From a virus, in IMG/VR virus record IMGVR_UViG_3300042564_002819, positions 1-64,000 of that record: a stretch of 64,000 nucleotides of DNA; one strand, given 5' to 3'. The position numbers and the translations under genes were made by a program. The notes under the pieces were generated by a model that was not told the DNA's origin, did not search any database, and was given only the letters and a program-made list of their open reading frames with translations. Positions 42,347 through 63,916 of the stretch are shown here, in pieces. Positions within the stretch are counted from its first letter, which is position 1. Each line of letters begins with the position of its first letter.

Positions 42347-42916
42347 ATGAAAATTAAGAATGTAATAATTCACGGAAAAATTTCCGACCCGTCCTACTTT
42401 GATAAAATGATGTCGCTGCTATCTGCAGATGAAAGTAAGAGAAATGAAAATTATACATATGAAAATATGGATTTTAAAAATCATTTAACTTATGACTTGC
42501 TGCTTACCGACGACGACGAAATCATTTGTTTTAGCGGACTTTATTCTAGACCCGGTTGGGGTGAACGCATTTATAGAAGTTCCAACAGAACTTACGTAAA
42601 TCCTAAATTTAGAAATAATGCATACAACTTTTATAATCCAATGTACATTGTTCCTCATCAGGTAACTAAGTTTCAATCACACATAGATATTGTTTTTAGT
42701 TCTAGAGAGCATTATAAATCAGAATTTTTTTTTAAAAAAGCAAAGACTGTGGTTGACTTTTACAAAGATTGGGATATAATGGATAATATGATAAAAGTTG
42801 TGCCCACGTCAACTAAAAAATCTGCATATCAAAAAGTTATAGTAAAATCTTTTACTGGTGCTAAATTGCCATTTGCATCTATAACAAAAGATGAATGGAA
42901 TATGTTGCCCGATTAA
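42347..42916 (+). CDS. Unidentified protein, 189 aa
   Basis: No family is certain. The N-terminus MKIKNVIIHGKISD is strand-like; the middle DDDEIICFSGLYSRPGWGER followed by YVNPKFRNNAY has a faint resemblance to GNAT acyltransferases, where such a strand pair precedes the acyl-CoA site. The C-terminal half has HIDIVFSSREHYKSEF and FYKDWDIMDNMIKV. It is the first gene after the fibre and marks the left edge of the accessory island. Confidence 0.55.
   Translation: MKIKNVIIHGKISDPSYFDKMMSLLSADESKRNENYTYENMDFKNHLTYDLLLTDDDEIICFSGLYSRPGWGERIYRSSNRTYVNPKFRNNAYNFYNPMYIVPHQVTKFQSHIDIVFSSREHYKSEFFFKKAKTVVDFYKDWDIMDNMIKVVPTSTKKSAYQKVIVKSFTGAKLPFASITKDEWNMLPD
42753..42780 (+). promoter_or_regulatory. 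Possible internal sigma70-like promoter
   Basis: TTGACT (42753-42758) and an exact TATAAT (42775-42780), 16-base spacer, inside the preceding coding region and about 225 bases upstream of the island's first PP-loop gene. Coding constraint could explain it. Confidence 0.4.
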
Positions 42917-43004
42917 GCTGTGTTTTAAATTTTATAAAACAACTGCCCAATCAAGTAATAGATAAACATAGAAAATTATGTAAGTTGAAAGAAATTAAAA
43001 AATA

Positions 43005-44276
43005 ATGGGTAGATTATACATAAACGATGTAGAAAAATTTATTTTACAAAAACTAAAAAAACCAGATATAACACACCCAGCAATTTATGTTAATCCAGGA
43101 ATAGTAGACTTATCCACTATTCCTTATAAAATTTATAATAAGGATCAAGATTTCTTATTACTTAAAAACGATGTAAGTAACATTTCTATAAAAGTAGAAG
43201 TTAACAACAAAATACATGATTTTTATATTATAAATAAACAATTTGTTAGCACAAATACTTGTAAGTTTTCTAAAGATTCTAATTTATCATTTGGATACGG
43301 TTTAACTGCTTTACCTAATTTGCCTTTGCTTCCTTTTATAGAAAAGTTTAAAATTCCTAAAGACATTGAAGTTATGTCATGGTGGGATGAATGTGTAAAC
43401 AGTGCAAAACATATAAAAGAAAGATATAAAGATATCTTTCTTTGTTTAAGTGGAGGATTAGATTCTGAACTTATGGCTCTTGCATTTATCGATGCTAATG
43501 TTAAATTTACGGCATTTTCTTTAGTTTATAAGCATAAAGATAAAATATTAAACGAACACGATATTAAACACGCTGTTGATTTATGTAAAAAATATAACAT
43601 AAAACTTGTTACCAAAGATGTGAATATTCTAGAAGATCTATATAACAACAGACATAGAGAATATTTTATAAACGGAGTTTATGAAACTTATTTTATTCTG
43701 CCATATCTTTATACTCAACAACTTATGATCGAACACATAAACAAGTTAGGCGGCGTTCCGATCATGGCCTCAGATCAGGTCGAAATGAAACTGAATAAAG
43801 ATGGCGAAGTATGCATCGGAGACTGTTCTTATTCTATAGGCCTTTCTGCTCCTACGTGGGCACACTTGACTAACAACACATGCATTTATGATTTTTTTAT
43901 GTATAGTCCAGAGCAAATATATGCATTTTTAAAACTAGAAGATGTGCAATCAACCAAGACAGTCGATTATAATTTTAAAAGAAAAGTTAGTATGATGCAT
44001 GGATCTCAAAAATTAAAATTTTATGAGAAAATAACAGGCTACGAATACATCAAGGAATCACTATTAATATACTATAAAAAAGAAATGCACGAAATTACAT
44101 TTAACACAATCGAAGATATTGACTGGACTAAAAAACCAATGGCACAGTTTATACATCCAATAAAAGATATAATTTCTGAAAATGAATTTAACAACTGGCA
44201 AATTATTAGAACAACATCAAATGACTTTTTAGCAAGAGGATTTAAAGAAAATGACCCACTATACTACGACATATAA
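43005..44276 (+). CDS. PP-loop ATP pyrophosphatase (asparagine synthase-like fold)
   Basis: A 423-aa protein with SGGLDS at 149-154, the ATP-pyrophosphatase loop of the N-type ATPase superfamily, and a following strand FTAFSLVYKH plus a KAVDLCKKYNIKLVTKD segment typical of the fold. There is no class II glutaminase domain with N-terminal Cys. It would adenylate a carboxyl or carbonyl group for amidation or ligation. The gene overlaps the homospermidine synthase gene by 26 bases, so polyamine or amine conjugation is a plausible setting. Confidence 0.75.
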   Translation: MGRLYINDVEKFILQKLKKPDITHPAIYVNPGIVDLSTIPYKIYNKDQDFLLLKNDVSNISIKVEVNNKIHDFYIINKQFVSTNTCKFSKDSNLSFGYGLTALPNLPLLPFIEKFKIPKDIEVMSWWDECVNSAKHIKERYKDIFLCLSGGLDSELMALAFIDANVKFTAFSLVYKHKDKILNEHDIKHAVDLCKKYNIKLVTKDVNILEDLYNNRHREYFINGVYETYFILPYLYTQQLMIEHINKLGGVPIMASDQVEMKLNKDGEVCIGDCSYSIGLSAPTWAHLTNNTCIYDFFMYSPEQIYAFLKLEDVQSTKTVDYNFKRKVSMMHGSQKLKFYEKITGYEYIKESLLIYYKKEMHEITFNTIEDIDWTKKPMAQFIHPIKDIISENEFNNWQIIRTTSNDFLARGFKENDPLYYDI

Positions 44277-45600
44277 AAATTTTAAAAAAATAATTATCCT
44301 CGGTGCAGGTAGCATTTCTAATGCACTGTTACCGTTAATATACAAACACATCGAAAATCCTAATGTTACAATTATTTCTGAAGATAACCGAAATAGTGAC
44401 ATCACTGAACAATACAATCTTACTAGAATTTTAAAAAAAATTGAGAAAGATTCTTACAAAGAGCTTCTGTCAAATTATACATCCGACGGTGATCTAGTAA
44501 TTAACTTAACAGTCGACGTGTCTTCACAAGATTTAATCGATTATTGCATGTTAAACAATTTAAATTATATAGATACATGTATTCAACCGTGGCCAGGATT
44601 TTTTGACAACTTTTCGATGTCAGACAGTGAAAGATCAAATTATGGATTAAGAAACAAACTAATCAGTACAAAAAACGATAGAAAAAATAAATCTACAGCT
44701 ATTGTATCGCACGGTGCTAATCCCGGGTTAGTAAACCACATAGTTAAAGACGGAATTTTAAGAATATCAAAAATTCTTGGATACGAAGATACACCCACAA
44801 ATAAAATTGAATGGGCAGAGCTTTCTAAAAAAATAGGACTTAAAACAATACACGTATCTGAGAGAGATTCGCAATTTGACTTATCCGAAAAAAAGAAAAA
44901 CGAATTCGTGAATACTTGGAGCGTTGATGGTTTTATTGCCGAGGGAATATTGCCTGCAGAACTCGGTTGGGGTACACACGAACTAGAAATGCCATCGCAA
45001 GGCTGCAACCACGAATACGGAACAAAGTCATCCATTTTCTTAAAAACTCCCGGATGTTCTACAAAAGTAAAAACATGGACGCCAAGTCATAAAAGTATCG
45101 TAGGCTATTTAATAACACATCAGGAATCTATGTCAATTGCAGAATTTTTAACAACTGATCACTATAGACCGACTGTGCATTATGCATATTGTCCGTGTGA
45201 TGTAGCATCCGAAAGTCTTGAAGAATTAGTTAAAAGAAACTTAAAAGGTCAAGATAATGCAAGAATAATGACAGACTCTCTAGTCGGCGGTATGGACGAG
45301 TTAGGAGTTTTGTTTATGGGAGATTTTGGTGCATACTGGCTAGGAAGTCAACTAAGCATCGACGAAACTAGATCATTGATTAGTCATAATAATGCAACTA
45401 GTCTACAAGTAGTTGCACCGTTGTTTGCTGCAATGCTCTGGGTTAACGAGAACACACATTGCGGATTACTAGAACCTGATGATTTGCCCTATGACTTTAT
45501 TTTAGACAAGTCGATGCCGTATCTCGGTAAGTATGTATTTGTAAAATCAGACTTTACTGTGAAAGATTGGCAATTTGTAAATTTTCTAGTAAGTGAGTAA
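44251..45600 (+). CDS. hss: Homospermidine synthase
   Basis: A 449-aa protein closely following the plan of bacterial homospermidine synthase: NAD-binding ILGAGSISNALLPLI at 16-30, NLTVDVSSQDLIDYC near 90-104, YIDTCIQPWPGFF near 111-123, HGANPGLVNHIVKDG, then ERDSQFDLSEKKKNEFVNTW with SVDGFIAEGILPAELGWGTH, and HYAYCPCD and VGGMDELGVLFMGD near the C-terminus. It makes homospermidine from putrescine (or related amines) using NAD. Host-like genes of this type are uncommon in phages. Ends tail-to-tail with the next gene. Confidence 0.92.
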   Translation: MTHYTTTYKNFKKIIILGAGSISNALLPLIYKHIENPNVTIISEDNRNSDITEQYNLTRILKKIEKDSYKELLSNYTSDGDLVINLTVDVSSQDLIDYCMLNNLNYIDTCIQPWPGFFDNFSMSDSERSNYGLRNKLISTKNDRKNKSTAIVSHGANPGLVNHIVKDGILRISKILGYEDTPTNKIEWAELSKKIGLKTIHVSERDSQFDLSEKKKNEFVNTWSVDGFIAEGILPAELGWGTHELEMPSQGCNHEYGTKSSIFLKTPGCSTKVKTWTPSHKSIVGYLITHQESMSIAEFLTTDHYRPTVHYAYCPCDVASESLEELVKRNLKGQDNARIMTDSLVGGMDELGVLFMGDFGAYWLGSQLSIDETRSLISHNNATSLQVVAPLFAAMLWVNENTHCGLLEPDDLPYDFILDKSMPYLGKYVFVKSDFTVKDWQFVNFLVSE

Positions 45601-45614
45601 TCACTTACTAGAAA
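45583..45614. terminator. Bidirectional hairpin spanning two stop codons
   Basis: TTTCTAGTAAGTGA (45583-45596), loop GTAA, and its exact complement (45601-45614). It sits exactly at the junction of convergent genes; the hss stop is in the loop and the other stop begins the right arm. Confidence 0.8.
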
Positions 45615-46182
45615 TAATTGTTGCAACTAAATGTATTCTTTCTTTTGTACTAGCATTAAACGCTGTATGCTTTTTCTGAGTTTCTGTATACCACCATTTA
45701 TTTTTTTCTAAGTGACACACTTGATCTTCTATTACCATTAAGCATCCTTCTTGAGTTTGCATAGGATAATGAACTCTTACATTATGGTCAACATGCCACG
45801 ACAAGCATGTTTTTGGTCTTGATTTCATTATTCTAACTCTGCCCAAGACAAACATACTGTCTAATGCGTTATATGCAGTTTCAAAAAGTGTTCCATGAAA
45901 TCTTGTGCATAGGTGTTTAAAATCTTCTTCTTTTAAAGGATTTTCTCGTACAACAGGATTAGTTGGAATTCCTGATTTAATATCTATCCCTGCTTTGTCC
46001 CAATCTAAATCTAAACTACCAACTCCGTGATGTATATTGTCCGGTTGATCGTCTGTAGTATTTAAACAGATTTGGTTTGGTTCTCTTGGAGAAAAATTAA
46101 TAATATTCATATCTAATAATCTGTTATACTCTTCTATTAAATTAAGTATAGGCAATCCAGATATTTCGCGAAAGTTTTCCAT
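45601..46182 (-). CDS. Aspartyl/asparaginyl beta-hydroxylase-like 2OG/Fe(II) oxygenase
   Basis: A 193-aa cupin-fold oxygenase. WHVDHNVRVHYPMQT has His130-x-Asp132, HTAFNAS supplies the distal His172, and RIHLVATI carries Arg182 for 2-oxoglutarate, as in PF05118-type hydroxylases. The substrate is unknown. It lies last in the minus-strand operon from 48914 to 45601 with the SDR and radical SAM genes, suggesting a hydroxylation step in the island's pathway. TTTTTCC-type AAGGAAAAA precedes the ATG. Confidence 0.82.
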   Translation of the reverse strand: MENFREISGLPILNLIEEYNRLLDMNIINFSPREPNQICLNTTDDQPDNIHHGVGSLDLDWDKAGIDIKSGIPTNPVVRENPLKEEDFKHLCTRFHGTLFETAYNALDSMFVLGRVRIMKSRPKTCLSWHVDHNVRVHYPMQTQEGCLMVIEDQVCHLEKNKWWYTETQKKHTAFNASTKERIHLVATIISSK

Positions 46183-46195
46183 TTTTTCCTTTTTA

Positions 46196-46726
46196 TTACT
46201 TTGGCAATATTGTCATTGATGTCAATCTATAACTACGAGTCATATTCACAGAATCTATAATAAATTGTGCAGCATCATTAGTATTTATAAAGCTAGATGG
46301 ATTGACCATACTTAAAATCCGTTCAGTGCCTATATAACCAAATCTAAACATAGTAACCTTGCACGGTTTGTTCATATTAGCTAACTGCTCGTTGGCTTTT
46401 TCTAAGCTTGCTTTTTGTGCTGAATATTCGTGAGGATGGCGTTTGATTCCATCTGTAGTATTACTACCAATGTTTATAATAATTTTGTCAAGTTCTGCCC
46501 ATCTATCCCACAATTCATATAGTAACTGTGTTTGAGCATATCCATCATGTGCATTATTAATAAACACATCGCAATGTATAGATTTGTCGATAATGCACTG
46601 TCTACTTAACGGATCTGTTATATCATATCCGGTTGATGTACTAAATCCTACAACTTTGTCATTGCCTACTAAATTAACAATTGCTTTTCCTAAACCATTA
46701 GTATGACCTGTTATTGCAATATTCAT
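46196..46726 (-). CDS. Short-chain dehydrogenase/reductase (SDR)
   Basis: A 176-aa classical SDR, shorter than usual (about 250). TGHTNGLGKA at 6-15 is the cofactor-binding GxxxGxG-like segment, NNAHDG near 57-62 matches NNAG, and YSAQKASLE carries YxxxK near 101-105. The end lacks the usual substrate loop. It lies between a twitch radical SAM gene and the beta-hydroxylase gene in one operon. Confidence 0.85.
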   Translation of the reverse strand: MNIAITGHTNGLGKAIVNLVGNDKVVGFSTSTGYDITDPLSRQCIIDKSIHCDVFINNAHDGYAQTQLLYELWDRWAELDKIIINIGSNTTDGIKRHPHEYSAQKASLEKANEQLANMNKPCKVTMFRFGYIGTERILSMVNPSSFINTNDAAQFIIDSVNMTRSYRLTSMTILPK

Positions 46727-46743
46727 AATTTTATAATTTCCTT

Positions 46744-47796
46744 TTATTTTTTTAATACATCCGATAACTCTGGGATATACTTATCTATACTTTTTTTCAA
46801 TATAAGATCTTGGTACTTTGTTTTTTCCACTAACATCTTATTAAGTTTGTAATTATATTTGTAATCTTTTATAAAACTAGAATTGTAATTGTTTTTATGT
46901 TTTTCTATATATTCCGGTGGCAATGAGTTTAGCGTAAATTCTACAGGATCTTTTATAAGAACAGGATTATGTTCTAAATTAAACTCTTTACTAAAATTAT
47001 TTAATTGTTCTATATTATGAAAATTATATGCCTGCACTACTGTATGAATGTATCTCATACTTTTCTTGTTGTTGTTTTTAAAAAAATCTTCCCATTTTTC
47101 TAAATTTTTAACTACCGAGTCCCATTTACATCCATCACGTATAAATTCGTTAACTCTTTCAGTGCCGTCTATACTGTACCCAACAAAAATTTCATCTGCA
47201 TTAAGTAGTTGTGTTTCGAACTTTTCTGGTGATACAGTCAGATTTGTGTTAATGTAAAATTTTATTTTATTATCACTATGATTTTTAATAAAATTAAAAA
47301 TGTTTTCTATTTCATCTGTAAGTAATGGCTCTCCACCAAGGTATTTTATTGTATTAACCTGTGTTCCAGTAATGCTTTTTAATAATTTTTCTATATTATA
47401 GGAAACTACTCCAGCAGTTTTTAAATTATCTTCAGTTTTCTTCCAAAGACTGCTATGTTTCGGATCGCACATGCGACACCGGCTATTGCATTTATTGCTT
47501 ACCGCAATTTCTAACATATCAAAGACATTTATGTCAGACTGACAATAAAAACTATAGCTATCTCTAACAGAATGCATCCCTAGCATTTCTGTTTTCTTAC
47601 ACGATAAGCACCCTTTGTCCCATGAATCTCCTTCCATATTTTTTCTTATAGAAGCAATATAATCCGAATTTAAAAATTCTAAAGGTGTTAAATCATCTAC
47701 TGTGTACGGACTTGTTTCAGGATATTCGCAGCAAGGTCTATATTTTCCACTAATTTCTACACATACTTGATTATATAACGCTTTACATAAGGGCAT
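46744..47796 (-). CDS. Radical SAM protein with N-terminal twitch-like cysteine region (1)
   Basis: A 350-aa protein. The core motif is Cys103-x3-Cys107-x2-Cys110 (CNSRCRMC), followed by a TIKYLGGEPLL segment. The N-terminal about 90 residues contain CC at 22-23 and Cys63/Cys66 (C-x2-C), resembling proteins annotated as twitch-domain radical SAM, where extra Cys may bind a second cluster. Similar proteins occur in marine phages (recollection). It overlaps the upstream radical SAM gene by one base. Confidence 0.85.
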   Translation of the reverse strand: MPLCKALYNQVCVEISGKYRPCCEYPETSPYTVDDLTPLEFLNSDYIASIRKNMEGDSWDKGCLSCKKTEMLGMHSVRDSYSFYCQSDINVFDMLEIAVSNKCNSRCRMCDPKHSSLWKKTEDNLKTAGVVSYNIEKLLKSITGTQVNTIKYLGGEPLLTDEIENIFNFIKNHSDNKIKFYINTNLTVSPEKFETQLLNADEIFVGYSIDGTERVNEFIRDGCKWDSVVKNLEKWEDFFKNNNKKSMRYIHTVVQAYNFHNIEQLNNFSKEFNLEHNPVLIKDPVEFTLNSLPPEYIEKHKNNYNSSFIKDYKYNYKLNKMLVEKTKYQDLILKKSIDKYIPELSDVLKK

Positions 47797-48914
47797 TATA
47801 ATTCTTTCTTAAACTTTGGAATTTTACTATCTGCACTGCTTACACAACTAGATGTTATGCACGGCATAGGTTTGTCAAACAATTTAAATCCTGTTTCGAT
47901 ATTACCCAACGGAACATCGTGGCATGAATACGAACGTTTAACCGATCCATCCGGCTCTCTAATAATTATGCCCTGGTATCCTGCATTGCAACTCCAACCT
48001 TTAAAGTTATTGAAGTTAAACGCATTAAATCGTTCGGCCTGATCCATATACCATTTTTCGCCTTTAGAGTCGGTAAACTCTACTTGCATGTGCCACGGCA
48101 CAGTAGCATCATTACGTCCTATTGTGTAGTCAGGAAGTTCAAATGTCGGAGTCGGTCTGTTTGCCCAGATACGTTTGTTTTCTGTATATGCTCGTTGTGG
48201 CATTCCGTTCCACAGTCTCTTAAGCATATCAGGAGTATAACCATCTACTACCCTGCTAGCAGTAGGATCACTTTGTGGCTTGAGTGTAACGTTAATTCCC
48301 TGTTCGTGGAAGAATAAAGCATTTTCCCAATCCTTTTCGAACCATTCTGGAACCATAACCATATTGATTGTAATTTGTATATCATATTCTTGACACAGGA
48401 TTAACTTGTCTGCAAAATCCTGCATCTTTTCCTTTGTGTCTAAATGTTCTGTATGCAAGCTAGCAGTAATACTTGCACGATGAAAGGGCTTAGAATATTC
48501 TACGTATTGTTCAAACCATTTCATTGGCCTTGAACAATTTGATGTCATATGAATGGAAGTGTAATTAGTATTAGAAACATCATCAGCAAGATATTTGAGA
48601 ATATCCAAATACCCAGGGTGAAAAGTAGGCTCGCCACCAGATAAACTAAAATGAAAGCTATTAAAACCGTTATCACGTGCTTGACGTTTTATTTCGTCGA
48701 TTGTTTTGAGACATAGCTCTGTAGGTCGATGATCTTTTGTGTTGGATCTTGCGTACGGCCAACAATAGCTGCATCTGTAGTTGCAGAATCTTCCAAGGAG
48801 CCAAGATACAGTAAATAAGTCTCTATATAAGAGTGTCCGTTGGCCGACTTGGACAATGTCGTCAAACGGGATTTTGGTAAAGTCATAATTGCTCCATTTT
48901 AAATCTTCGGTCAT
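47796..48914 (-). CDS. Radical SAM/SPASM-like protein
   Basis: A 372-aa protein with Cys44-x3-Cys48-x2-Cys51 (CNYRCSYC) and a LSGGEPTFHPG segment. Near the C-terminus, WSCNAGYQGIIIREPDGSVK, YSCHD and PCITSSC give several Cys in SPASM-like spacing, suggesting additional [4Fe-4S] clusters. It is the first gene after a sigma70-like promoter and heads a four-gene leftward operon (this gene, twitch radical SAM, SDR, hydroxylase). Confidence 0.87.
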   Translation of the reverse strand: MTEDLKWSNYDFTKIPFDDIVQVGQRTLLYRDLFTVSWLLGRFCNYRCSYCWPYARSNTKDHRPTELCLKTIDEIKRQARDNGFNSFHFSLSGGEPTFHPGYLDILKYLADDVSNTNYTSIHMTSNCSRPMKWFEQYVEYSKPFHRASITASLHTEHLDTKEKMQDFADKLILCQEYDIQITINMVMVPEWFEKDWENALFFHEQGINVTLKPQSDPTASRVVDGYTPDMLKRLWNGMPQRAYTENKRIWANRPTPTFELPDYTIGRNDATVPWHMQVEFTDSKGEKWYMDQAERFNAFNFNNFKGWSCNAGYQGIIIREPDGSVKRSYSCHDVPLGNIETGFKLFDKPMPCITSSCVSSADSKIPKFKKEL

Positions 48915-48920
48915 ATTTTT

Positions 48921-48948
48921 AGTATAACACCTTTCTCGTATTTGTCAA
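48921..48948 (-). promoter_or_regulatory. Sigma70-like promoter of the leftward radical SAM operon
   Basis: On the minus strand TTGACA (48948-48943) and TATACT (48926-48921) with a 16-base spacer. The ATG starts six bases after the -10 box, the same geometry as for dnaJ, again implying a leaderless mRNA. Confidence 0.72.
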
Positions 48949-48979
48949 TTATGTTTATATTTAACAGATAAGTATTAGC

Positions 48980-49942
48980 ATGATTTATGACGAGCTCACT
49001 CATTTTAAAAACTATGTATTTGTAGATTGGGATATAAGTAGTCGCTGCAATTACAATTGCTATTACTGCACACCCGAGTCACATGACGGAAAAATAAATT
49101 TTCCCGATATAACTGTTGCAAAAAAAGTAGTCGAAAAAATAGAGAAAGAATACAGTTCTTGTAAAGAATTTGCAGTGTATAATCTTTTAGGTGGAGAACC
49201 TACTATATGGAATGATTTGCCAGAATTTAGCAAATATATCAAATCTATTAACAACAAAAATATATTACAATTGTTGACAAACGGCAATAGAACACTAAGA
49301 TGGTGGGAAAATTCTGCACCATACATAGATAAAATTATTGTTAGTGTGCATGTTGCACAAACCGATATTGTTAAATTAGTAGAAAAGTTTAACAAGCTAG
49401 CAGATAAAATCTATATAGACTTTCAATTTGCAATGGATGTTGCAGTGTTTGATCAAGCCGTTGAAGATTATTATTATGCTTATAACAACCTGCATGAAAA
49501 TATTTGTTTATATTCTAAGCCTTTACGGAAAGTGTTAAATAACACCGAATTGATGCCATATACAGAATTGCAAATTGAAACTATTAAAAAGTTACCATCT
49601 AAATGGAGCAGATCTATCGAAATATTCGAAACTCCTATGGTTAAAAAGCTTAACGGAACAGTTGTAGACCCTGCTGTTAATATTGGTAAATTAGTTTTAT
49701 CAAAAGAAAACAACTGGTACGGATGGGCTTGTTGGATTGGCATAGATACTATTACTATTAATCGATACGGAAATGTTAAAATAGGTTCTGGTTGCAACCC
49801 CGACCTAGTGCTCGGTAATATAAATTCTTTAGATTTTAAATTTCCACTGATTCCTGTCAAGTGTAAATATACTACTTGTGGATGTTTTGCTGATATATCT
49901 ACAACAAAAAAATTAAACTACACAGGACCTATGATTCTTTAA
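48980..49942 (+). CDS. Radical SAM/SPASM-like protein
   Basis: A 320-aa protein with Cys23-x3-Cys27-x2-Cys30 (CNYNCYYC) and LLGGEPTIWNDL. The C-terminal region has WACWIGIDTITINRYGNVK, SGCNPD and KYTTCGCF, a SPASM-like set of Cys. It resembles the divergent gene at 48914. Its end overlaps the convergent B12-type gene by four bases. No ribosome-binding site is obvious; GATAAGTATTAG precedes the ATG. Confidence 0.85.
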   Translation: MIYDELTHFKNYVFVDWDISSRCNYNCYYCTPESHDGKINFPDITVAKKVVEKIEKEYSSCKEFAVYNLLGGEPTIWNDLPEFSKYIKSINNKNILQLLTNGNRTLRWWENSAPYIDKIIVSVHVAQTDIVKLVEKFNKLADKIYIDFQFAMDVAVFDQAVEDYYYAYNNLHENICLYSKPLRKVLNNTELMPYTELQIETIKKLPSKWSRSIEIFETPMVKKLNGTVVDPAVNIGKLVLSKENNWYGWACWIGIDTITINRYGNVKIGSGCNPDLVLGNINSLDFKFPLIPVKCKYTTCGCFADISTTKKLNYTGPMIL

Positions 49943-51399
49943 TATAGCTTATTAAATTTTTCTAAATGTGCATTTACGATTTTTTCCATATGTGAATTTT
50001 TGCCATATACTTCGTTTATTAAATTCCATATTTCCGATATTCTCTTCTTTCTGACTTCCGGAGAATTGTCTTTATACTTCCAATTAAGAGAACTATTATA
50101 ATATTCTAAATCGTCCTTTATAGTCTCATAAATTATAGAATCCTTATCTAATATCAATGTATTTCCGAATCCAAAATGAATTAGTGGAGTTTGCGAGTAA
50201 TCGCCGACCTTTGTATCAAGATATCCTATCTCTTTTAATTTTCTAATAGTGTCTAATGTTATCTTGTGATCTTCATCTGTTTCAGTTGGATATCCAACTA
50301 TCATTAGCAAACTGTGTTGTATTCTATTTTTTTGAAGTTGTTCAAGGCAAAACCACATATCTTCATCTTTGATCTTTTTACCCATATGAAATCTAACACT
50401 TTCACTAAAGCTTTCTAGTCCAACATCAAGTCCGTGACATCCGCTATCTTTCATTAACTGAAAATCCTCTGCTGTACACTGTGATTGAGGTCGCATAATC
50501 CATTGACTGCTCCAAGTAAAACCAGGGTCTGTTTTTCTATATTCTTTTAATAAATTTAGTAATTCTCTAAATGTTTTCATACTTCCGTTTATTAAGCTAT
50601 CGGTAAAATGAAAATCTGTTCGGTTCCAGAGTTTACGAATTTCTACTATCTCAGTAAAAATACTTTTAGCAGATCTAAATTTATACTTCGGCCAAAGTCG
50701 ATGTATATCGCAAAATGTACAATTTTTAACACACCCTCTACTTCCAGTTATGTAAACAGTTTTTCCGTTTTTAAACCTGTTAGGATATAAAGTCCATTCT
50801 ATATCGCTATAGTCAGGTATTAGTACAGTTGACAAATCTTCAACTTGGTGTGCTTCGTCTGAGTTAATTCCAGGAGCAGACACATTACCTTTTAATAATT
50901 CAACTAAAGAAAATTCTGCATCTCCGTGTATAAAAAAATCAATCAAACCTCTATTGAGCGGATACTGAGCTCGATAACCACGAACGTCGGCGCCGCCCCA
51001 AATAATCTTTGTGTTAGGTAAGTATTTTTTTATTAACATAGAAAAGTAAATTGCAAAAGTTCTACTATACTCAGTTAGCAAACTCATGCCTACAAATCTT
51101 GGTTTTAATTTTTTTAAATCGTTAATAACACTATTTGTCCAATTTTTATATTTTTTAAGAAAAATTTTATGTTCTTTTTCTAAAGAATAATCCCACTCGG
51201 TTACAAATATTTTATCATCATTTTTAAAGAAATACTTTTCTTTTTCCTCATCGGACATTATATTATACAATTGTATATTTAGGTCTATTATTTTGCATGA
51301 AAATCCTTCTGCAGAAAGATGACTTTTAAGAATTGCCGGACCTACTGTAGGAGCATATGGATCTATTTTTGGTATTACTAATATTGCTATATCTACCAT
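49939..51399 (-). CDS. B12-binding-type radical SAM protein (1)
   Basis: A 486-aa protein counted from ATG 51399 (MVDIAILVIPKID), which aligns with the start of its paralogue at 53209; a start 18 bases further upstream is possible. The N-terminal about 180 residues look like a B12-binding Rossmann domain (GMSLLTEYSR, IIWGGADVRGY) but no DxHxxG motif is seen. The radical SAM motif GSRGCVKNCTFCD has Cys223-x3-Cys227-x2-Cys230, followed by FTDSLINGS and GLDVGLESFSE. Such enzymes do methylations, cyclisations or other radical reactions. Confidence 0.86.
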   Translation of the reverse strand: MVDIAILVIPKIDPYAPTVGPAILKSHLSAEGFSCKIIDLNIQLYNIMSDEEKEKYFFKNDDKIFVTEWDYSLEKEHKIFLKKYKNWTNSVINDLKKLKPRFVGMSLLTEYSRTFAIYFSMLIKKYLPNTKIIWGGADVRGYRAQYPLNRGLIDFFIHGDAEFSLVELLKGNVSAPGINSDEAHQVEDLSTVLIPDYSDIEWTLYPNRFKNGKTVYITGSRGCVKNCTFCDIHRLWPKYKFRSAKSIFTEIVEIRKLWNRTDFHFTDSLINGSMKTFRELLNLLKEYRKTDPGFTWSSQWIMRPQSQCTAEDFQLMKDSGCHGLDVGLESFSESVRFHMGKKIKDEDMWFCLEQLQKNRIQHSLLMIVGYPTETDEDHKITLDTIRKLKEIGYLDTKVGDYSQTPLIHFGFGNTLILDKDSIIYETIKDDLEYYNSSLNWKYKDNSPEVRKKRISEIWNLINEVYGKNSHMEKIVNAHLEKFNKLY

Positions 51400-51400
51400 T

Positions 51401-52024: not shown

Positions 52025-52035
52025 TTTAAAGTTTT

Positions 52036-53145: not shown

Positions 53146-53158
53146 GTTTTTTAAATCC

Positions 53159-53166
53159 TATAAATA
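53159..53166 (+). promoter_or_regulatory. T4-like late promoter box TATAAATA
   Basis: An exact TATAAATA lies in the 63-base divergent gap, 42 bases before the ATG at 53209. It is the only exact T4 late consensus I noted and points to the rightward five-gene cluster. Confidence 0.5.
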
Positions 53167-53208
53167 TATGCATGTATTTAACTTTAACAGAGAGATAAAG
53201 ATTTATAT

Positions 53209-54723: not shown

Positions 54724-54731
54724 GGAAAAAC

Positions 54732-55442: not shown

Positions 55443-55443
55443 A

Positions 55444-56250: not shown

Positions 56251-56258
56251 GATTAATC

Positions 56259-57014
56259 ATGAAACCAAAACACCCAAATGTCGAATTTGAGGAAATGTGG
56301 GAAGTATCTGATGGCAGTGCAACTATAATTCCTATGAATAGTAAATGGAAAGCAATAGGCGTTCAAGTATCAGGAGGTTTAGACAGTGCTGTTCTCCTGT
56401 ACTTAACTGTCAAAACAATACAAAAACATAATCTAGATGTAAAAGTTGTTCCTATTAGTTTAGAAATTTACAATAAAGCAAAGAATTTAGAGAGTTCTAG
56501 AGCAGTAATACAAAAAGTTAAAGACATTACAGGATTTAAAAACTGGGGAGAATCGGTAGAAGCTATTGGAAAACCTTCTCAAGCAGAATTTATCGGAAAA
56601 AACAGTTTTTTTAGTTCTGTTATTAATACACTATTTTTAAAAAAAGCAATAGATTTTGAAATTAACGGAGTGACTAAAAACCCTCCTTTAGAAGTGTGTA
56701 AAGATTTTAAATTTAACGAATACAGAGAATTTGCAAGAGACAATCCGCGAACTATATACAACGGAATGCGAAATGCTAGTCCACACGCTTTTGTAGATAA
56801 AAAAGGAATAGTAGAACATTATATCAATCATAATCTAGTTGATGAAATAATTCCGCTAACGCTCTCTTGTGATGAAAAATTAGATATAATAATAAAAAAT
56901 GATTGGCCAATTCCTTGTGGCACCTGTTGGTGGTGCAGAGAAAGAAGATGGGGCCTCGAATCTCACAATCTTGATTATCAAAAATATAGTCCGTTAAATG
57001 CATATACCAAGTAA
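56259..57014 (+). CDS. QueC-like PP-loop ATP pyrophosphatase (2)
   Basis: A 251-aa protein with SGGLDS at 38-43 and a C-terminal LSCDEK followed by PCGTCWWCRERRWG, giving C...C-x2-C-x2-C, the closest match here to the QueC zinc motif. It also shares TKNPP and SCDEK segments with its paralogue. It could form preQ0 or catalyse a related amidation/nitrile reaction. It overlaps the next radical SAM gene by 17 bases. Confidence 0.77.
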   Translation: MKPKHPNVEFEEMWEVSDGSATIIPMNSKWKAIGVQVSGGLDSAVLLYLTVKTIQKHNLDVKVVPISLEIYNKAKNLESSRAVIQKVKDITGFKNWGESVEAIGKPSQAEFIGKNSFFSSVINTLFLKKAIDFEINGVTKNPPLEVCKDFKFNEYREFARDNPRTIYNGMRNASPHAFVDKKGIVEHYINHNLVDEIIPLTLSCDEKLDIIIKNDWPIPCGTCWWCRERRWGLESHNLDYQKYSPLNAYTK

Positions 57015-58182
57015 AACTTTTTGCAGCATGGCTTGGAACCATCAGTTTATCGATCCTACAGGACGAGTTAAGCCGTGTTGCAGATTTGCAGAAAAATTTA
57101 GACCAGTAGAAAACAATCTTAACAATAAAACATTGAGTGAAGTGTTTTATGGCGAGTGGATGACTGATATTCGACAAAAAATGCTAGCCGGAGACACTGT
57201 GCCGGGCTGCATTAGATGCTATCAAGAAGAAGCAGCCGGTAAAAAAAGTCTGCGAGAACGTTACCACGAAAACAAAGATCTTCCTATAGACGAGCTAGTT
57301 AATCTAACAAATCCAACTATTCGTTGGATAGAGCTTGCTATTAGCAACGATTGTAATCTTGCATGTAGGATGTGCGACAGTCGTTATGCGTGGAAATGGT
57401 TTAAAGAAGAAAAAGAGATGTACGGGTCCACTCTTAACACTGTTGAACACAGCAAAAGTGACATATCAAACATCTTTCCATTTATAAACGATCTAGTACA
57501 TATAAAATTTACAGGCGGAGAACCATTATTAACAAAAGATCAATGGCTATTAGTTGATAAAATGCTTGAGGAAAGAGACTGTAGTGACATTTTATTAAAT
57601 TATTCAACTAATTGTACAATAATGCCAAAAGACAGTTGGGTTGAAAAATGGAAAAAATTTAAACAAGTTGAATTTGCATTAAGTTTTGATAGTGCAAATC
57701 CTGCAGAATCTGAATATATACGTTGGCCTGCAAAATTTGAAACAACCGAAGCAGTTACAAAAAGATTTTTAGAACTTAAAAAAGAACATGGATTTCATGT
57801 ATTTTTAAGAAGTACTATAAGTTTATTGAATGTTTGGTACATGCCAGAAAGTATGCAATGGTGGCACGACAACGATCCTTCGTCAGTTAAAATAATGAAT
57901 CCTACACACTTGACATATCCCGAAAACTTATCTGTTACAGTATTACCACAGCATATTAAAGAAAGAATCACTTTAAAATTTGTTGATTATCAAAAAAATT
58001 GTAATATTAAAAAGATAAATGAAAGTTTAGAATACATCAAAAATTACATGAATAGCAAGGATGACAGTCATTTACTTCCGAGTTTAAAATCATATATAAC
58101 TCAGACCGATGCTTATAGAAATCAAGATTTTTTTAAAAACTATCCTCAATTTTCAGATATATTTGAACAATTGTGTGTTTGA
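56998..58182 (+). CDS. Radical SAM protein with N-terminal twitch-like cysteine region (2)
   Basis: A 394-aa protein. Core Cys119-x3-Cys123-x2-Cys126 (CNLACRMC), then FTGGEPLLTKDQ. N-terminal Cys9, CC at 27-28 and Cys71/Cys74 follow the same plan as the other four twitch-like proteins here. Its start lies inside the QueC-like gene. Its 3' end overlaps the convergent radical SAM gene by 37 bases, so the two mRNAs would be antisense there. Confidence 0.85.
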   Translation: MHIPSKTFCSMAWNHQFIDPTGRVKPCCRFAEKFRPVENNLNNKTLSEVFYGEWMTDIRQKMLAGDTVPGCIRCYQEEAAGKKSLRERYHENKDLPIDELVNLTNPTIRWIELAISNDCNLACRMCDSRYAWKWFKEEKEMYGSTLNTVEHSKSDISNIFPFINDLVHIKFTGGEPLLTKDQWLLVDKMLEERDCSDILLNYSTNCTIMPKDSWVEKWKKFKQVEFALSFDSANPAESEYIRWPAKFETTEAVTKRFLELKKEHGFHVFLRSTISLLNVWYMPESMQWWHDNDPSSVKIMNPTHLTYPENLSVTVLPQHIKERITLKFVDYQKNCNIKKINESLEYIKNYMNSKDDSHLLPSLKSYITQTDAYRNQDFFKNYPQFSDIFEQLCV

Positions 58183-59255
58183 TATTGTTTATACATATAA
58201 GAATCTTTTTTGCAATTTATTATGCAACTAGTACAAACATTATCAGATTTCCATGTTTCTTTGATCTTTTTAAAAATTTTAACTTGATCTAATATCCTAT
58301 CTATCGGATTTAATATTACATTGTTAAAAAAATAATCCTTTCTTATAGAATCTTTAAAAATTTCAACTATACTATCATATAGTATATTTTGTTTATAGTC
58401 TTGTTCGAATCCTATTGCAGTATGACAACACGGCCAAAGTCTCTGATCGTACGATAAAAACACACTGTTTTCATTTAAAGCATTACAAGATATTTTTCCT
58501 TTTCTCACTATCTTAGGACTTTCTAAACTATTTGCATACCCAACATCGGCACCATAATATTTGTGCCATTTTTTATCAAAGTGTTTAGTATCTCGTACAA
58601 TGTCGTTATTTTTAATATTATATGGTTCTAAAAAGTATGAATGTTCTAAATTTTTATCTACTACTGATAATTTTTTTTCTTTAAATCTTGTTGATTCTCT
58701 TGTAGCAAATTCGGTAAACTTGAGGTCAAATGCTAGTTTTTTGCATTCATCTATTTGATGTGCATTGTGTTTAAAAAGAGTCATCTCCCATCTAGCTATA
58801 CCACCAGATTCAATGTATGCTTTTGCATTTTGTATAACTCGCGAAAAAGAAGTATTTCTTCTATACAAATGATGGGTATCTTCTAATCCATCAATACCAA
58901 ATCTTACTTCAACATTTGGCTGTTCGCCTAACCATTTCCAAAATTCTAATGATTGTGCTCCGCCGTTTGTATGTATATTGATTTTAAAATTTAATTCAAC
59001 AAATACTTCTATTATCGATTTTGGATTAGTGTGCATTACAATATCTCCAAAATTTCCATTTATTAGTACCGTTTCGATGTCTTTAAAGAAAGGATGAGCT
59101 AATGTATTTTTTAAGTCAACTGCATTCCACTCTGAAATATTTAAGCGTGGATAAGTTTCTAGACTAGTTTCAAACGTCCTAGGACATTGCGGACATCTTG
59201 CATTACACGCACTAGTCGGTTCAAAATGAAGCATAGTTATAGGTGATGAATACAT
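58146..59255 (-). CDS. Radical SAM protein with C-terminal SPASM-like cysteines (2)
   Basis: A 369-aa paralogue of the gene at 52036, of equal length. Cys17-x3-Cys21-x2-Cys24 (CNARCPQC), then ETVLINGNFGD and RFGIDGLEDTHHLYRRNT. C-terminal ISCNALNENS, LWPCCHTAIG and VCTSCIINCK are SPASM-like. It is the last gene of a five-gene leftward operon. GAGGAGT lies just before its ATG. Confidence 0.86.
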   Translation of the reverse strand: MYSSPITMLHFEPTSACNARCPQCPRTFETSLETYPRLNISEWNAVDLKNTLAHPFFKDIETVLINGNFGDIVMHTNPKSIIEVFVELNFKINIHTNGGAQSLEFWKWLGEQPNVEVRFGIDGLEDTHHLYRRNTSFSRVIQNAKAYIESGGIARWEMTLFKHNAHQIDECKKLAFDLKFTEFATRESTRFKEKKLSVVDKNLEHSYFLEPYNIKNNDIVRDTKHFDKKWHKYYGADVGYANSLESPKIVRKGKISCNALNENSVFLSYDQRLWPCCHTAIGFEQDYKQNILYDSIVEIFKDSIRKDYFFNNVILNPIDRILDQVKIFKKIKETWKSDNVCTSCIINCKKDSYMYKQYQTHNCSNISEN

Positions 59256-59257
59256 GT

Positions 59258-60481
59258 TTACTCCTCGTAATATTCGTAGTATTTTAATTTTTCGTTAATA
59301 TAGTCTTGTAATAATGGGTTTACATCTTTTAGTGACAGTTTTCTTACTTTGCTAAAATACTCAATTGCTTCACTAAATTGTTTAATTCTACGTAATGTTA
59401 TATCTGAGCCGATTGTATTATATACTACTTGCAAATTTTCAATAATTTCTTCGTAGTTATCAAATCGATTTCTAAATTTATTTACAATTTTTATAGATCT
59501 TTTAACATACTTTTTAAATCTGTCGTCAAGAAATCCTACTGTTATACCCGGAGTGTAAACAATATTGGCTTTTACATCAATTTTAATTTTGTATTTCATA
59601 GTAATATAAATTAAAAAATTAAAATAGTCAGGCAACATTGTTATAGATATTGGATTTATTGCCATGTTTGTACTCATTAAATATCCTGTATTTGCCCACT
59701 TTTTAAAATTTTCAACAAATCTATCGTAAGAGCATCCATATCTAATATATTCAAAATTTTGTCCAACACTTTCAGCACTGATAGATATTAAGTAATTTAA
59801 ATTTGGATATTTTTGTTTGTAAAAACTCATTTTTTCTAAACACTTATCCATTATCTTAGGAGGAGTATTTGCATTTGTTTGTATAGTTAATAAGAGATAT
59901 GTATTCGGATCTGTATTTTTATAAAAACTCTCAATGGTCAAATCCAACAGTTCTTTTTTGTTTATACTCATTAGTAAAGGCTCTCCTCCTAAGAGTATTA
60001 TTTCGTAATAGTCATCTTCTTTTTTATTTTTAGCAACTTCGGAAATATAATTAAAAACATAGTCAGCATATTTTTTAGGAGTATGTTTATTTTTTATTTC
60101 TCTGTCAGCCCACGTTGGCGGCTCAACACTTGTATTTAATATTTCTTGTTCCCATTTACTACTGTAAATTCTACTACAATAGACACAAGCAGAATCACAG
60201 GTATTGTCAAAGTAAAGTTCAATTTGATATTTGTTCGGTCGTTTTTCGTAATGTTCGTTGCCGTGCATTCTCCACGATTTATTTTTAGAAAACTCAGCTT
60301 TCCAACAAGTATTACAAGAATTATTTTTTATACCATTTTGCAAATCTGTTTTTATTTTTTCAAGGTCGTCTGTAAACATTTCTGCACCAGGATGCATTTT
60401 ACAACAAAGACATACTGTATTTTCTAACGGTCTGAATACTATTTCATGAGAACTTCTTTTACATCCAAGATTATCTTGCAT
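59258..60481 (-). CDS. Radical SAM protein with N-terminal twitch-like cysteine region (3)
   Basis: A 407-aa protein. Core Cys95-x3-Cys99-x2-Cys102 (CDSACVYC), then LLGGEPLLMSINKK. N-terminal Cys7, the CLCC run at 24-27 and Cys56/Cys59 resemble the other twitch-like proteins, with one extra Cys. It overlaps the upstream gene by 11 bases and ends two bases before the next start. Confidence 0.85.
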   Translation of the reverse strand: MQDNLGCKRSSHEIVFRPLENTVCLCCKMHPGAEMFTDDLEKIKTDLQNGIKNNSCNTCWKAEFSKNKSWRMHGNEHYEKRPNKYQIELYFDNTCDSACVYCSRIYSSKWEQEILNTSVEPPTWADREIKNKHTPKKYADYVFNYISEVAKNKKEDDYYEIILLGGEPLLMSINKKELLDLTIESFYKNTDPNTYLLLTIQTNANTPPKIMDKCLEKMSFYKQKYPNLNYLISISAESVGQNFEYIRYGCSYDRFVENFKKWANTGYLMSTNMAINPISITMLPDYFNFLIYITMKYKIKIDVKANIVYTPGITVGFLDDRFKKYVKRSIKIVNKFRNRFDNYEEIIENLQVVYNTIGSDITLRRIKQFSEAIEYFSKVRKLSLKDVNPLLQDYINEKLKYYEYYEE

Positions 60482-61691
60482 TTTGTTTTACCTTAGTTGC
60501 CCAATTTGCTAATTCTGGATTATAATCATAAATGTTAAATCCTCTTAGAGAATTAATATAATCGATCCATCGCAATGCATGAGAATTGTCTTCATCAGTT
60601 GCCGAATATTTTAAAGTCTTTAATCTTTCTGTTCTTTCAAAAATTATAGGATTTTTTAAATATTCTGTATTGTTAAAAAAATCATTTACTAATCTATCTA
60701 TGTCGTTTTGTGGAACGATACTATATGCAGAATACTTTGGAAGAAAAACATAGTAATAAGCAAATACATCTACTAATCCTGTTTTTAACAACTCGTTTGC
60801 TGATTCCTTAAGAGTCCATAATGTATAGAGTGAAACTGTACTACTTGCTATAACTCTTTTTCCTGTTCTTCTTAAATATGTTTCCATATTTTCAAGTGTT
60901 TGTTCATAAGGAGTACTACGTATCCATTCGTAGATTTTTCCTGTGCCGTCAAGACTTGCAGTAACTAATAATTCAACATTGGGATTTTTATTTAACTTTT
61001 CTAAAATGTCCCAAATTTCTTCTGTAATTACTGCCCAATTAGAAACAATTAAAATACGCATTTCGTATTTTTTATCTACAATTTCTTTTAAAACTCTTAT
61101 ATTTCTTGGATCTGCAAAGGGCTCGCCCCCTTTAATAAGTAAAAACTTAATCGACGGTAACACTTCTAAAATCTTTTTCATGTCGTCGTCGGTGGCCTGG
61201 AAAGCCTTTGTATGTAAGTTTGATAATCCAGAATTTTCTCTAAATTCTAAACCTTCTTTTTTTGCACGTTTATCTAGTCCTATCCATTTACTGCTATAGA
61301 TACTTCCGCACATAGCACAGCTTTGATTACATAAGTTACTTGGAGTATACTCTAGTGATAAAATTTGCTTTCTCGAAGAATTAAAATTTTCATCCGACCA
61401 AGGAAGATTAACATAATGATCGTTGTCTATATGGGCAGGAATTCCATTTTCTCTATTGTCTTTGCAAGCTACACATGCACTTGGCCATTCACCTTTTTTA
61501 AATTTATTACGAATGCCATTTATTATGTCATTGTTGTAATAGTCAGTTAATGATGCTACCTCGCTAATATATGACCCGTGTTTTTTGCCAACTGTGCATA
61601 ATTTTAAATCTCCCAATGGACCAATGTTAAGTTGGCTCCACGGGGCTTTACACATCATCGGTCTACGAGATTGATATTCTTTATCAGACAT
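60471..61691 (-). CDS. Radical SAM protein with N-terminal twitch-like cysteine region (4)
   Basis: A 406-aa protein counted from ATG 61691, which follows AAGGGGATATA; a start 30 bases further upstream is in frame. Core Cys121-x3-Cys125-x2-Cys128 (CNQSCAMC), then LIKGGEPFADPRN. N-terminal Cys14, Cys32 and Cys73/Cys76. It overlaps the PLP enzyme gene by eight bases. Confidence 0.85.
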   Translation of the reverse strand: MSDKEYQSRRPMMCKAPWSQLNIGPLGDLKLCTVGKKHGSYISEVASLTDYYNNDIINGIRNKFKKGEWPSACVACKDNRENGIPAHIDNDHYVNLPWSDENFNSSRKQILSLEYTPSNLCNQSCAMCGSIYSSKWIGLDKRAKKEGLEFRENSGLSNLHTKAFQATDDDMKKILEVLPSIKFLLIKGGEPFADPRNIRVLKEIVDKKYEMRILIVSNWAVITEEIWDILEKLNKNPNVELLVTASLDGTGKIYEWIRSTPYEQTLENMETYLRRTGKRVIASSTVSLYTLWTLKESANELLKTGLVDVFAYYYVFLPKYSAYSIVPQNDIDRLVNDFFNNTEYLKNPIIFERTERLKTLKYSATDEDNSHALRWIDYINSLRGFNIYDYNPELANWATKVKQNAR

Positions 61692-62565
61692 TATATCCCC
61701 TTGCGTCAAATCTATTATCAACTAGCATTCTTAAAGGAGTTCTAACACTTACAAAAGTTCCATTATGAGATGCAATATTTATAGAATCAGTTTCTTCTAA
61801 TTTAAAATCTTTGCAAACTTTTGTATATTCTTTATTATAATTTTTCCACCAAAAGTCCGAGCCAAACCTGTCTATCATATTACACCCAATCCACATGTCG
61901 CTTACGTTATTATATCCAAAGTTATTCATAATATTTATAGGACCATCGATTTGTTCTTTACTGTATCGAACACCAATTCTTTGAGATCCCATCGAAAAGG
62001 CTTTACTTAGGCTAATTGAAAACGTCTTGATAGCAGAATGTGACAAATCTATATCAATGTTTTTACACTGTCCTAGCCATGCTGCATCTATGTGAACGTC
62101 GATAGAGTTTTTGTAACAAAAGTCTAAGAGTCGATCTATGTCGGGTATATTCCCTGCTGTTTTAACAGAAGGATAAGAAATAACTAGAACTGATCCTGAC
62201 GGTATTGCAGAATAATGTGTTACTTTTAAAATTTTTGGATTTAATCTCCAATGATATGCATACTCGCCTTCGAATATTACTAACTTATTACTGTATCTGT
62301 AATGCAGTTCGTCTATTTGCTGTGAAACACCTAATATAGCATCAGTAAATTTAAAAGACTCTAAATTTTTAATATTATTTAATTTAGAATTTTTAATCCA
62401 AGCTGTAACTTTTTCTATAAAGTATTTTGTATATTGATTGCTATCTGTTGGATATTCTTTCATATCTAGAGAATCTCGAAACCCAATAATTTTACCAACT
62501 AACATAGGAGGAATTCTAGATGTTAAAAACTTTTCTACACTTAAGTTATTATAATCCATATACAT
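61684..62565 (-). CDS. Fold-type I PLP-dependent enzyme (aminotransferase-like)
   Basis: A 293-aa protein, short for the family (about 380). DVHIDAAWLG at 157-166 holds Asp160, which contacts the PLP ring nitrogen, and SLSKAFSMGSQRIG at 185-198 holds the PLP-binding Lys188. YPSVKTAGNIPD (about 131-142) corresponds to the usual PNNPTG region. It would be an aminotransferase or lyase-like enzyme; its small size suggests a lost C-terminal part. It overlaps the radical SAM gene on each side, so it probably works on their product. Confidence 0.78.
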   Translation of the reverse strand: MYMDYNNLSVEKFLTSRIPPMLVGKIIGFRDSLDMKEYPTDSNQYTKYFIEKVTAWIKNSKLNNIKNLESFKFTDAILGVSQQIDELHYRYSNKLVIFEGEYAYHWRLNPKILKVTHYSAIPSGSVLVISYPSVKTAGNIPDIDRLLDFCYKNSIDVHIDAAWLGQCKNIDIDLSHSAIKTFSISLSKAFSMGSQRIGVRYSKEQIDGPINIMNNFGYNNVSDMWIGCNMIDRFGSDFWWKNYNKEYTKVCKDFKLEETDSINIASHNGTFVSVRTPLRMLVDNRFDARGYNV

Positions 62566-63916
62566 CGCCTTTTAACAATGCCCATGTTTTTTCGCATACA
62601 TCTTTTAGTTTTTCTTTTCTTGACTTATCTAATGTATTTGTATAATACCAAAACTTTTCTAAATCTTTAGAATGATCTTCTGAGTTCATAAATTTTATAT
62701 ATTGATCTAATATCTTACAAAAATACTTAAAGTTTTCCGATTTTTCTTTTTCGGTTAAATCTAGCAACGAAATCTCTGCTTTAGCTTCAATCTTTTTTTG
62801 TTCAAAGTAATTTTCTATCCACTGCTTACTTTCTTTTGGAAATATTTGAATATTTAAGAACTTTGGATTATGTAAAGGATGCGGACTTATTACCGGCTTG
62901 TGTTGCACCTCAACATTAATTCTTTTAAATTTTTGTTTGATTTTCCAAAGCATCATATCAGGCAAGTGAACTAGATTATATGCTTGTATAGTAGCAGCCC
63001 ACCATATTTTAAAATCTCCTTCAGCAGCGTCTAATTTTCGCATATTTTCTTCTATCTTGTGCCATTTGCTAGGATTTCTTATATAATCGTTTATTGGTCC
63101 TACAGCATCAACACTCATTCCAATTTGTATACGTTCAAAATGCTTCCAAATATTCCAAGCACGTTCTGGAATATTAGTAATATTTGTATTGTATTCTATC
63201 ACAATAGATTTAGATCTTCCGGCATCTATGCACTTTTGTAAAAACTCGTAATGTTGGTCTATTAATAAAGGTTCCCCTCCAACGATGTATAATCGTTCTA
63301 TTGTAGGAATTTCTTGTTCCATTTCCTTCCAAAAAGCAGGCTTTTCGTACCAAGAATAGATATCAACTTCGGGTTTATGCTTTCCGTTTGCTGTTTTTAT
63401 TAATTTTACAGTTTGCCCGCTATCTTTATATTGATTTCCCCAAAGCAATACGTTGTCATCGTACCACTGACTGCTATCTGTAGGCCCACACATTCTACAT
63501 TTTAAATTGCAAAGATTTCCAAAACGAAGATCCATGTATTTTATAGGATTTTCTTCTAAATCAATTGATCCATCTTGCTTCGTTTTTGATATGGCATCTT
63601 CTTTATTAATTACATGAGCCCATATATCTCTTTCCCAACTAGCTCTACTTTCCATTCCTGATTCTGCTTCACGTTTACATCTAATGCATGATTCGTGATA
63701 TTCATTATTTAACATAGCTAATCTAACTTCTTTCATTAGATTGCTGTTTCTAAATCCGTGTATAGTTTCAGTTGATAGGTTGTAATTCGATCCTGTTTCT
63801 GTTTTTACTAATCCCTGATTAATACTAACATTTGCATTACAACATATTCTTACATCGCCGTTATTTCTTACATTTAAACTCATCCACGGCAGTGGACAAA
63901 ATGCGTTATTTTCCAT
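62549..63916 (-). CDS. Radical SAM protein with N-terminal twitch-like cysteine region (5)
   Basis: A 455-aa protein, the longest twitch-like paralogue. Core Cys136-x3-Cys140-x2-Cys143 (CNLKCRMC), then YIVGGEPLLIDQH. N-terminal Cys7, CC at 25-26 and Cys77/Cys80. ATAGGATTTATAA precedes the ATG. First complete gene of the leftward operon that ends at 58146. Confidence 0.86.
   Translation of the reverse strand: MENNAFCPLPWMSLNVRNNGDVRICCNANVSINQGLVKTETGSNYNLSTETIHGFRNSNLMKEVRLAMLNNEYHESCIRCKREAESGMESRASWERDIWAHVINKEDAISKTKQDGSIDLEENPIKYMDLRFGNLCNLKCRMCGPTDSSQWYDDNVLLWGNQYKDSGQTVKLIKTANGKHKPEVDIYSWYEKPAFWKEMEQEIPTIERLYIVGGEPLLIDQHYEFLQKCIDAGRSKSIVIEYNTNITNIPERAWNIWKHFERIQIGMSVDAVGPINDYIRNPSKWHKIEENMRKLDAAEGDFKIWWAATIQAYNLVHLPDMMLWKIKQKFKRINVEVQHKPVISPHPLHNPKFLNIQIFPKESKQWIENYFEQKKIEAKAEISLLDLTEKEKSENFKYFCKILDQYIKFMNSEDHSKDLEKFWYYTNTLDKSRKEKLKDVCEKTWALLKGDVYGL

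Follow-up and report, generated by a model that had tools for sequence, protein, structure and literature searches.

What does a T4-like phage make with a dense island of radical S-adenosylmethionine (rSAM) genes? The question is raised by the viral record IMGVR_UViG_3300042564_002819 (330,024 bases), whose bases 1–64000 form the window analysed here, and for which an original prediction had counted eleven CxxxCxxC genes within 46.7–63.9 kb and had named an elaborate nucleobase, a polyamine-containing metabolite or a surface group as possible products. The count is correct: exactly 11 open reading frames (ORFs) of at least 150 aa carry the motif in 42.3–64 kb, 11 of the 21 ORFs of that size there compared with 0 of 37 in 1–42.3 kb, and Pfam Radical_SAM matches all 11, ten above the curated cut-off and one (58146–59255) slightly under it. 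A gp23 match (E 5e-102) and a T4-type DNA polymerase in the record support a T4-like phage. Of the three proposed products the surface group is the best supported, by linkage to fibre genes, glycosyltransferases (GTs), sugar enzymes and cassette exchange, and we favour, with modest confidence, the reading that a jumbo T4-like phage has here an enlarged host-recognition cluster, in which a biosynthesis and decoration island is linked to the fibres.

The complete record contains 16 Pfam Radical_SAM matches, all within 47–89 kb, so that the clustering is not due to chance and the coordinates first given cover only the left part of an island that continues beyond the window. The island is about 50 kb long, ends at about 92.6 kb of the record, and is bordered by fibre and tail-collar genes on the right and by a fibre-like structural gene on the left (40835–42280, plus strand). 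Past a SPASM rSAM gene (SPASM63; record 63931–64980, minus strand, with only its last bases, 63931–64000, in the window), the order is QueC64, TWI65, SPASM67, a 75-aa ORF, MT69, GTrep69, TWI72, a StrB1-type amidinotransferase and DegT, followed by a 2-oxoglutarate (2OG) oxygenase gene, GTs, a UDP-sugar dehydrogenase, an rSAM gene (81731–83653), an epimerase, TWI87, GTa89, u90, two GT8 genes, a 115-aa ORF and the fibre genes. The GT8 pair matches the glycogenin profile (E 3.6e-5) with invariant DxD columns, while the structural model of GTa is predicted to be GT-A-like, nearest to WrtF and to the peptide S-glycosyltransferases SunS and ThuS. GTrep69 (857 aa, record 69859–72432) has approximately six tandem copies of a unit similar to a portion of the GTa-like domain at its own C-terminus. 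The 115-aa ORF (record 92564–92908), between the fibre genes and GT8, possibly encodes a fibre accessory protein.

Single-protein searches returned mainly copies of this virus. Recurrence is reported from IMG/VR searches with alignments, which gave at least 588 relatives for SPASM and at least 137 for the QueC-like proteins, of which the best 80 or so of each were used, and at least 594 relatives for GTa, from which 73 loci of at least 10 kb were counted. Among these GTa loci, the fibre family is present in 66/73, the 115-aa ORF in 69/73, at least one rSAM gene in 60/73 and at least three in 37/73. The 53 control loci, chosen around DNA polymerase, have no fibre genes (0/53), no MT69 (0/53) and never three or more rSAM genes (0/53); a single or second rSAM match occurs in 10/53, as does a GT match. 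SPASM-rSAM loci carry at least three rSAM genes in 53 of 60 cases and a GT in 41 of 60. A common order emerges in aquatic viral contigs: fibre genes, 115-aa ORF, GT8, GT8, u90, GTa, a variable rSAM and sugar cassette, and GTrep69, after which MT69, the 75-aa ORF, SPASM and TWI often follow. The near-constant set from the 115-aa ORF to GTa lies directly after the fibre genes on the same strand. Gene maps of related islands show many with at least four rSAM genes, the maximum being 14 in 21 kb, and other long viral records contain 13, 13, 18, 19 and 23 rSAM matches. Island genes of the phage type also occur on contigs of metagenome-assembled genomes titled Pacearchaeota, Acidimicrobiaceae and Chloroflexi; these contigs may be phage DNA that was binned wrongly.

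Comparison with close relatives indicates how the island changes. One relative of 357 kb (G147), whose DNA polymerase is 80% identical, keeps the island slot between its fibre genes and a structural gene of the RLRRGT type ('RLRRGT...EGELVYxTDTK.L..GDGTTVGGI'), the N-terminus of which is similar to that of the gene at the left edge here. Its fixed genes remain close to ours (GTa 71%, GTrep69 65% identical), but of its rSAM proteins, each compared with the best in this island, only R47 reaches 51% and every other one lies at 23–43%. The nearest relative contig shares several genes at 72–88% identity, but TWI59 (59258–60481, minus strand) is at 38% and SPASM58 (58146–59255, minus strand; SPASM-type by profile) at 54%. 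R47 itself (47796–48914, minus strand) is 82–88% identical in the islands of three other contigs. By these identities, cassettes turn over on a fixed gene frame, as expected for a host-recognition locus.

Such loci have precedents, and the original statement that no described phage system combines these genes was too strong, as smaller versions occur in CP220/CPt10, in pelagimyophages and in S-SCSM2R. In pelagimyophages and cyanomyophages, the host recognition cluster (HRC) is likewise a hypervariable island of T4-like phages with tail fibres, GTs and rSAM cassettes; it lies in the structural region between VrlC and the neck gene gp14, and its mean length of 44.6 kb in pelagimyophages is comparable to the roughly 50 kb of the present island (PMC7029224). 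We judged likeness to the HRC on a T4-like core genome, a fibre-flanked variable island, and GT and rSAM content; the present island differs in its 16 rSAM matches, its constant fibre-GT8-GT8-u90-GTa frame, its QueC-like subgroup and its 330-kb genome. The Campylobacter phages CP220 and CPt10, with 11–12 rSAM genes per genome, have an exchangeable module of five rSAM genes and an amidinotransferase in which sequence is swapped and function kept; their authors suggested oxygen-independent metabolism, not surface decoration (PMC2853527). They share with this island the combination of multiple rSAM genes with an amidinotransferase, content swapping at one locus, and homologous SPASM, R48 and amidinotransferase proteins, but their cluster is smaller and gave no QueC-like match. 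Pelagibacter phage Mosig EXVC030M has SPASM, R48, MT69, AspHydrox, PLP61, SGNH and epimerase homologues between its tail fibres and VrlC, with three MoaA-like (rSAM-type) genes annotated and no QueC-like match. The isolated cyanophage Synechococcus phage S-SCSM2R combines adjacent GTs, a DegT-type gene, rSAM, a 2OG oxygenase and an inosamine amidinotransferase, but has one rSAM gene annotated in the stretch read, where no QueC-like gene was noted. Island-family homologues are found also in Vibrio phage K566. What is new relative to these precedents is the scale, the recurrence, the constant fibre-GT frame, the QueC-like subgroup and a toolkit held in common with Bdellovibrionia.

That last link emerged when the QueC-like alignment was run against genomes of bacteria and archaea. 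The cluster on a 936-kb Bdellovibrionia contig reads TWI, PLP61, SPASM, SDR, QueC, TWI, SPASM, B12-rSAM, TWI, and several genomes of this group have at least 10 rSAM genes in 30–40 kb, some with homologues of GTa, GTrep69 and MT69. The B12-binding protein B12rSAM53 (53209–54723, plus strand) is 64% identical to its orthologue on the 936-kb contig and 68% to that in another genome; the best matches of the other proteins, whose orthologues are clustered, are 57–59% for TWI56 (56998–58182, plus strand), 54–56% for SPASM63, 43–45% for TWI62 (62549–63916, minus strand) and 40–45% for QueC56 (56259–57014, plus strand). A QueC-like gene is present in 7 of 144 Bdellovibrionia genomes and is hence accessory there. 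In the QueC tree, QueC56 falls in a supported set of 12 sequences, nine of them from Bdellovibrionia, and QueC64 groups with phage sequences, which makes the island a mosaic; the direction of transfer cannot be read from the tree. The Bdellovibrionia islands differ in being chromosomal, in having HTTM-like membrane pairs and in showing no phage fibre genes. Three of them (G003:C1:747–775 kb, G002:C275 and G001:C15:639–665 kb) combine at least 10 rSAM genes with such pairs.

The occurrence of similar gene sets without phage fibres is one argument for a different product, a diffusible compound produced during infection that would be either a secondary metabolite or a polyamine derivative; the other is the homospermidine synthase homologue (44251–45600, plus strand), a match to solved enzymes at E 2.5e-106 over residues 12–436, with full-length homology and putative activity. 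The enzyme identified in the original prediction is thus genuine by sequence, but it is the sole basis of the proposed polyamine metabolite, and searches of relatives found it nowhere but in this virus and in contigs nearly identical to it. No exporter was seen, and the fixed linkage to fibres and GTs speaks against such a product, which we regard as very improbable.

If the island instead serves host recognition, soluble enzymes in the host cytoplasm would make unusual sugar or aminocyclitol-like groups. Amino- and guanidino-sugar chemistry is indicated by the amidinotransferase, DegT, the UDP-sugar dehydrogenase and the epimerase. Among solved enzymes the amidinotransferase is closest to StrB1, an inosamine-phosphate amidinotransferase (342 bits versus 227 for SxtG), and by analogy its pairing with DegT recalls streptidine-type chemistry, a lead on what the product may be. 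The rSAM and B12-rSAM enzymes would perform hard C–H steps (epimerisation, oxidation, methylation); comparable oxidations are carried out in aminocyclitol pathways by BtrN and other twitch rSAM enzymes. The QueC-like PP-loop enzymes would supply ATP-driven carboxylate activation, the constant GTs would transfer the product, most likely onto fibres, and a swapped cassette would alter the decoration and, through it, host recognition or evasion.

Several points weigh against this proposal. The putative product, substrate and virion modification are all read from genes alone, and the window part at 42–64 kb has no recognised GT, all of them lying beyond the window. The GT-A match of GTa is weak (E 6e-4, TM about 0.3). 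Fibre genes lie within 10 kb of just 14/60 SPASM loci and 1/61 QueC loci; island length and the ends of contigs account for part of this, but the linkage is weaker too. The DNA-polymerase control covers the replication region and not other structural regions. The Bdellovibrionia toolkit is without an evident phage fibre, so its substrate may differ there. Finally, the target might just as well be precursors of the host lipopolysaccharide (LPS).

This last point leads to an alternative in which the island alters the glycan on the host surface (the core or O-chain of LPS) during infection, giving superinfection exclusion or receptor masking. The pelagimyophage authors propose such a role for their GTs (PMC7029224), and two Bdellovibrionia genomes have a GmhA-like gene (LPS heptose synthesis; identified by eye) next to their related rSAM clusters. 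However, hydropathy analysis of 46 proteins from the island revealed no clear membrane segment, the only two borderline ones being in proteins presumed soluble, and hence none of the hallmarks of O-antigen or capsule systems (Wzx/Wzy or Gtr): no flippase, no polymerase and no membrane-anchored GT. The placement of the fixed GTs directly after the fibre genes on the same strand also counts against LPS modification, which has, in our judgement, a minor but appreciable chance.

The QueC-like proteins bear on a further alternative, a pathway to a hypermodified DNA or tRNA base. The island encodes three mutually related QueC-like PP-loop proteins, QueC55 (55444–56250, plus strand), QueC56 and QueC64, and the record also encodes a GTP cyclohydrolase I (FolE, window 30071–30604). 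Like canonical QueC, Cap9 and QatC (PF06508), all 23 QueC-like sequences have the SGGxDS PP-loop. Canonical QueC has the zinc motif C(x)8CxxCxxC; four cysteines are kept in most of the 23, with C(x)10-17CxxCxxC in 19 and insertions in the other four, including QueC55. The 23 also have motifs of their own, GxTxNP and C[WF]xCxER. The canonical motifs YxQxHxxE, VPxRN and YPDC (taken from PMC13329287) are each present in 0 of 23. Neither QueD nor TGT/DpdA was found in the 330-kb record, which may be incomplete, and none of the rSAM proteins tested reached the QueE cut-off. By tblastn, GenBank phages gave no match for QueC55, GTa89, MT69, the 75-aa ORF or the 115-aa ORF; the search for the QueC-like subgroup, with one member as query, covered 50,697 phages and likewise gave none. 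Given also the site among fibre genes and the turnover of cassettes, the nucleobase product first suggested is disfavoured, and we hold it to be extremely doubtful.

The rSAM proteins themselves, sorted with profiles built for this analysis, comprise eight TWI (twitch) members, four SPASM-like members, two B12-binding members (and probably a third, the 641-aa protein encoded at 81731–83653, which to the eye looks like a B12-binding domain in its N-terminal part), R47 and R48; cysteines are invariant among the aligned TWI and SPASM members. In the window, besides those already located, these are a TWI protein with an N-terminal twitch domain (46744–47796, minus strand; NF033640 above cut-off), R48 (48980–49942, plus strand) and a B12-binding rSAM (49939–51417, minus strand), both from Pfam and profile matches, a SPASM-type rSAM (52036–53145, minus strand; profile match) and a TWI rSAM (60471–61694, minus strand; ATG start set at 61694). 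The 47796 and 48980 genes score 41–42 bits against the viperin (pVip) cut-off of 180, generic rSAM similarity only, and we rejected a defence function of this type.

SPASM, twitch and B12-rSAM families are akin to the maturases of ribosomally synthesised and post-translationally modified peptides (RiPPs), which raises the alternative that these enzymes act on protein directly, on fibres or a small substrate, by crosslinks, epimerisations, C-methylations or hydroxylations. An Asp/Asn beta-hydroxylase-type 2OG-Fe oxygenase (AspHydrox45; 45601–46182, minus strand; PF05118) has homologues in many related islands, protein N-termini can be modified by QueC-family enzymes, and the 75-aa ORF (record 68126–68350) often stands just before an rSAM or QueC gene, usually with MT69 or GTrep69 on its other side. 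This ORF was promising at first as a RiPP precursor, but its whole length is conserved across 32 loci with no variable core, and such uniform conservation counts against that role; no other precursor search was made. The six window rSAM proteins tested against RiPP maturase profiles all fall far under the curated cut-offs, and direct protein modification leaves the sugar-pathway genes unexplained; we consider it rather unlikely.

The remaining window genes qualify several details of the original prediction. Its tight operons are real insofar as genes overlap or abut, but strands alternate over at least six units, so the region is not a single operon. Two of its three PP-loop enzymes stand, QueC55 and QueC56, with conserved SGGxDS and fold; the third (43005–44276, plus strand) has weak Pfam matches only. 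AspHydrox45 is a clear 2OG-Fe oxygenase, and the second, putative one (54732–55442, plus strand) lacks a Pfam match but has an HxD...H motif invariant among relatives. The short-chain dehydrogenase/reductase (SDR; 46196–46726, minus strand) is a weak match under the Pfam cut-off. The pyridoxal phosphate (PLP) enzyme-like protein PLP61 (61684–62565, minus strand) has no Pfam match and no relative in a sequence search of solved structures, but keeps a conserved SLSK...G....G..RIG lysine motif. A 189-aa protein (42347–42916, plus strand) has no Pfam match, and the 228-aa u51 (51401–52087, minus strand) is also present in the closest relative. Outside the island, a 505-aa protein (10369–11886) matches phage cytidyltransferases in its N-terminal part and is mostly without assignment in its C-terminal part.

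A wider reading, which we put forward tentatively and as possible rather than probable, is that these loci represent a class of phage system that is widespread but had gone unrecognised. Virion fibres would be chemically rebuilt in it, with an exotic sugar or on the polypeptide directly, by at least a dozen rSAM enzymes together with a new subgroup of the QueC family, adding combinatorial chemical variability beyond protein sequence with a toolkit common to Bdellovibrionia. The findings also advise caution when auxiliary-gene surveys report viral 'queC' or 'ahbD', which may not mean synthesis of queuosine or haem; the ahbD calls of one survey were already judged doubtful by that survey itself (PMC9301287). 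If the surface-decoration reading is true, some aquatic T4-like phages would spend about 50 kb and up to two dozen oxygen-sensitive enzymes on unusual surface chemistry at their host-recognition locus. This would add a new dimension to the co-evolution of phages and their hosts, and would offer rSAM and QueC-family reactions that are so far uncharacterised.

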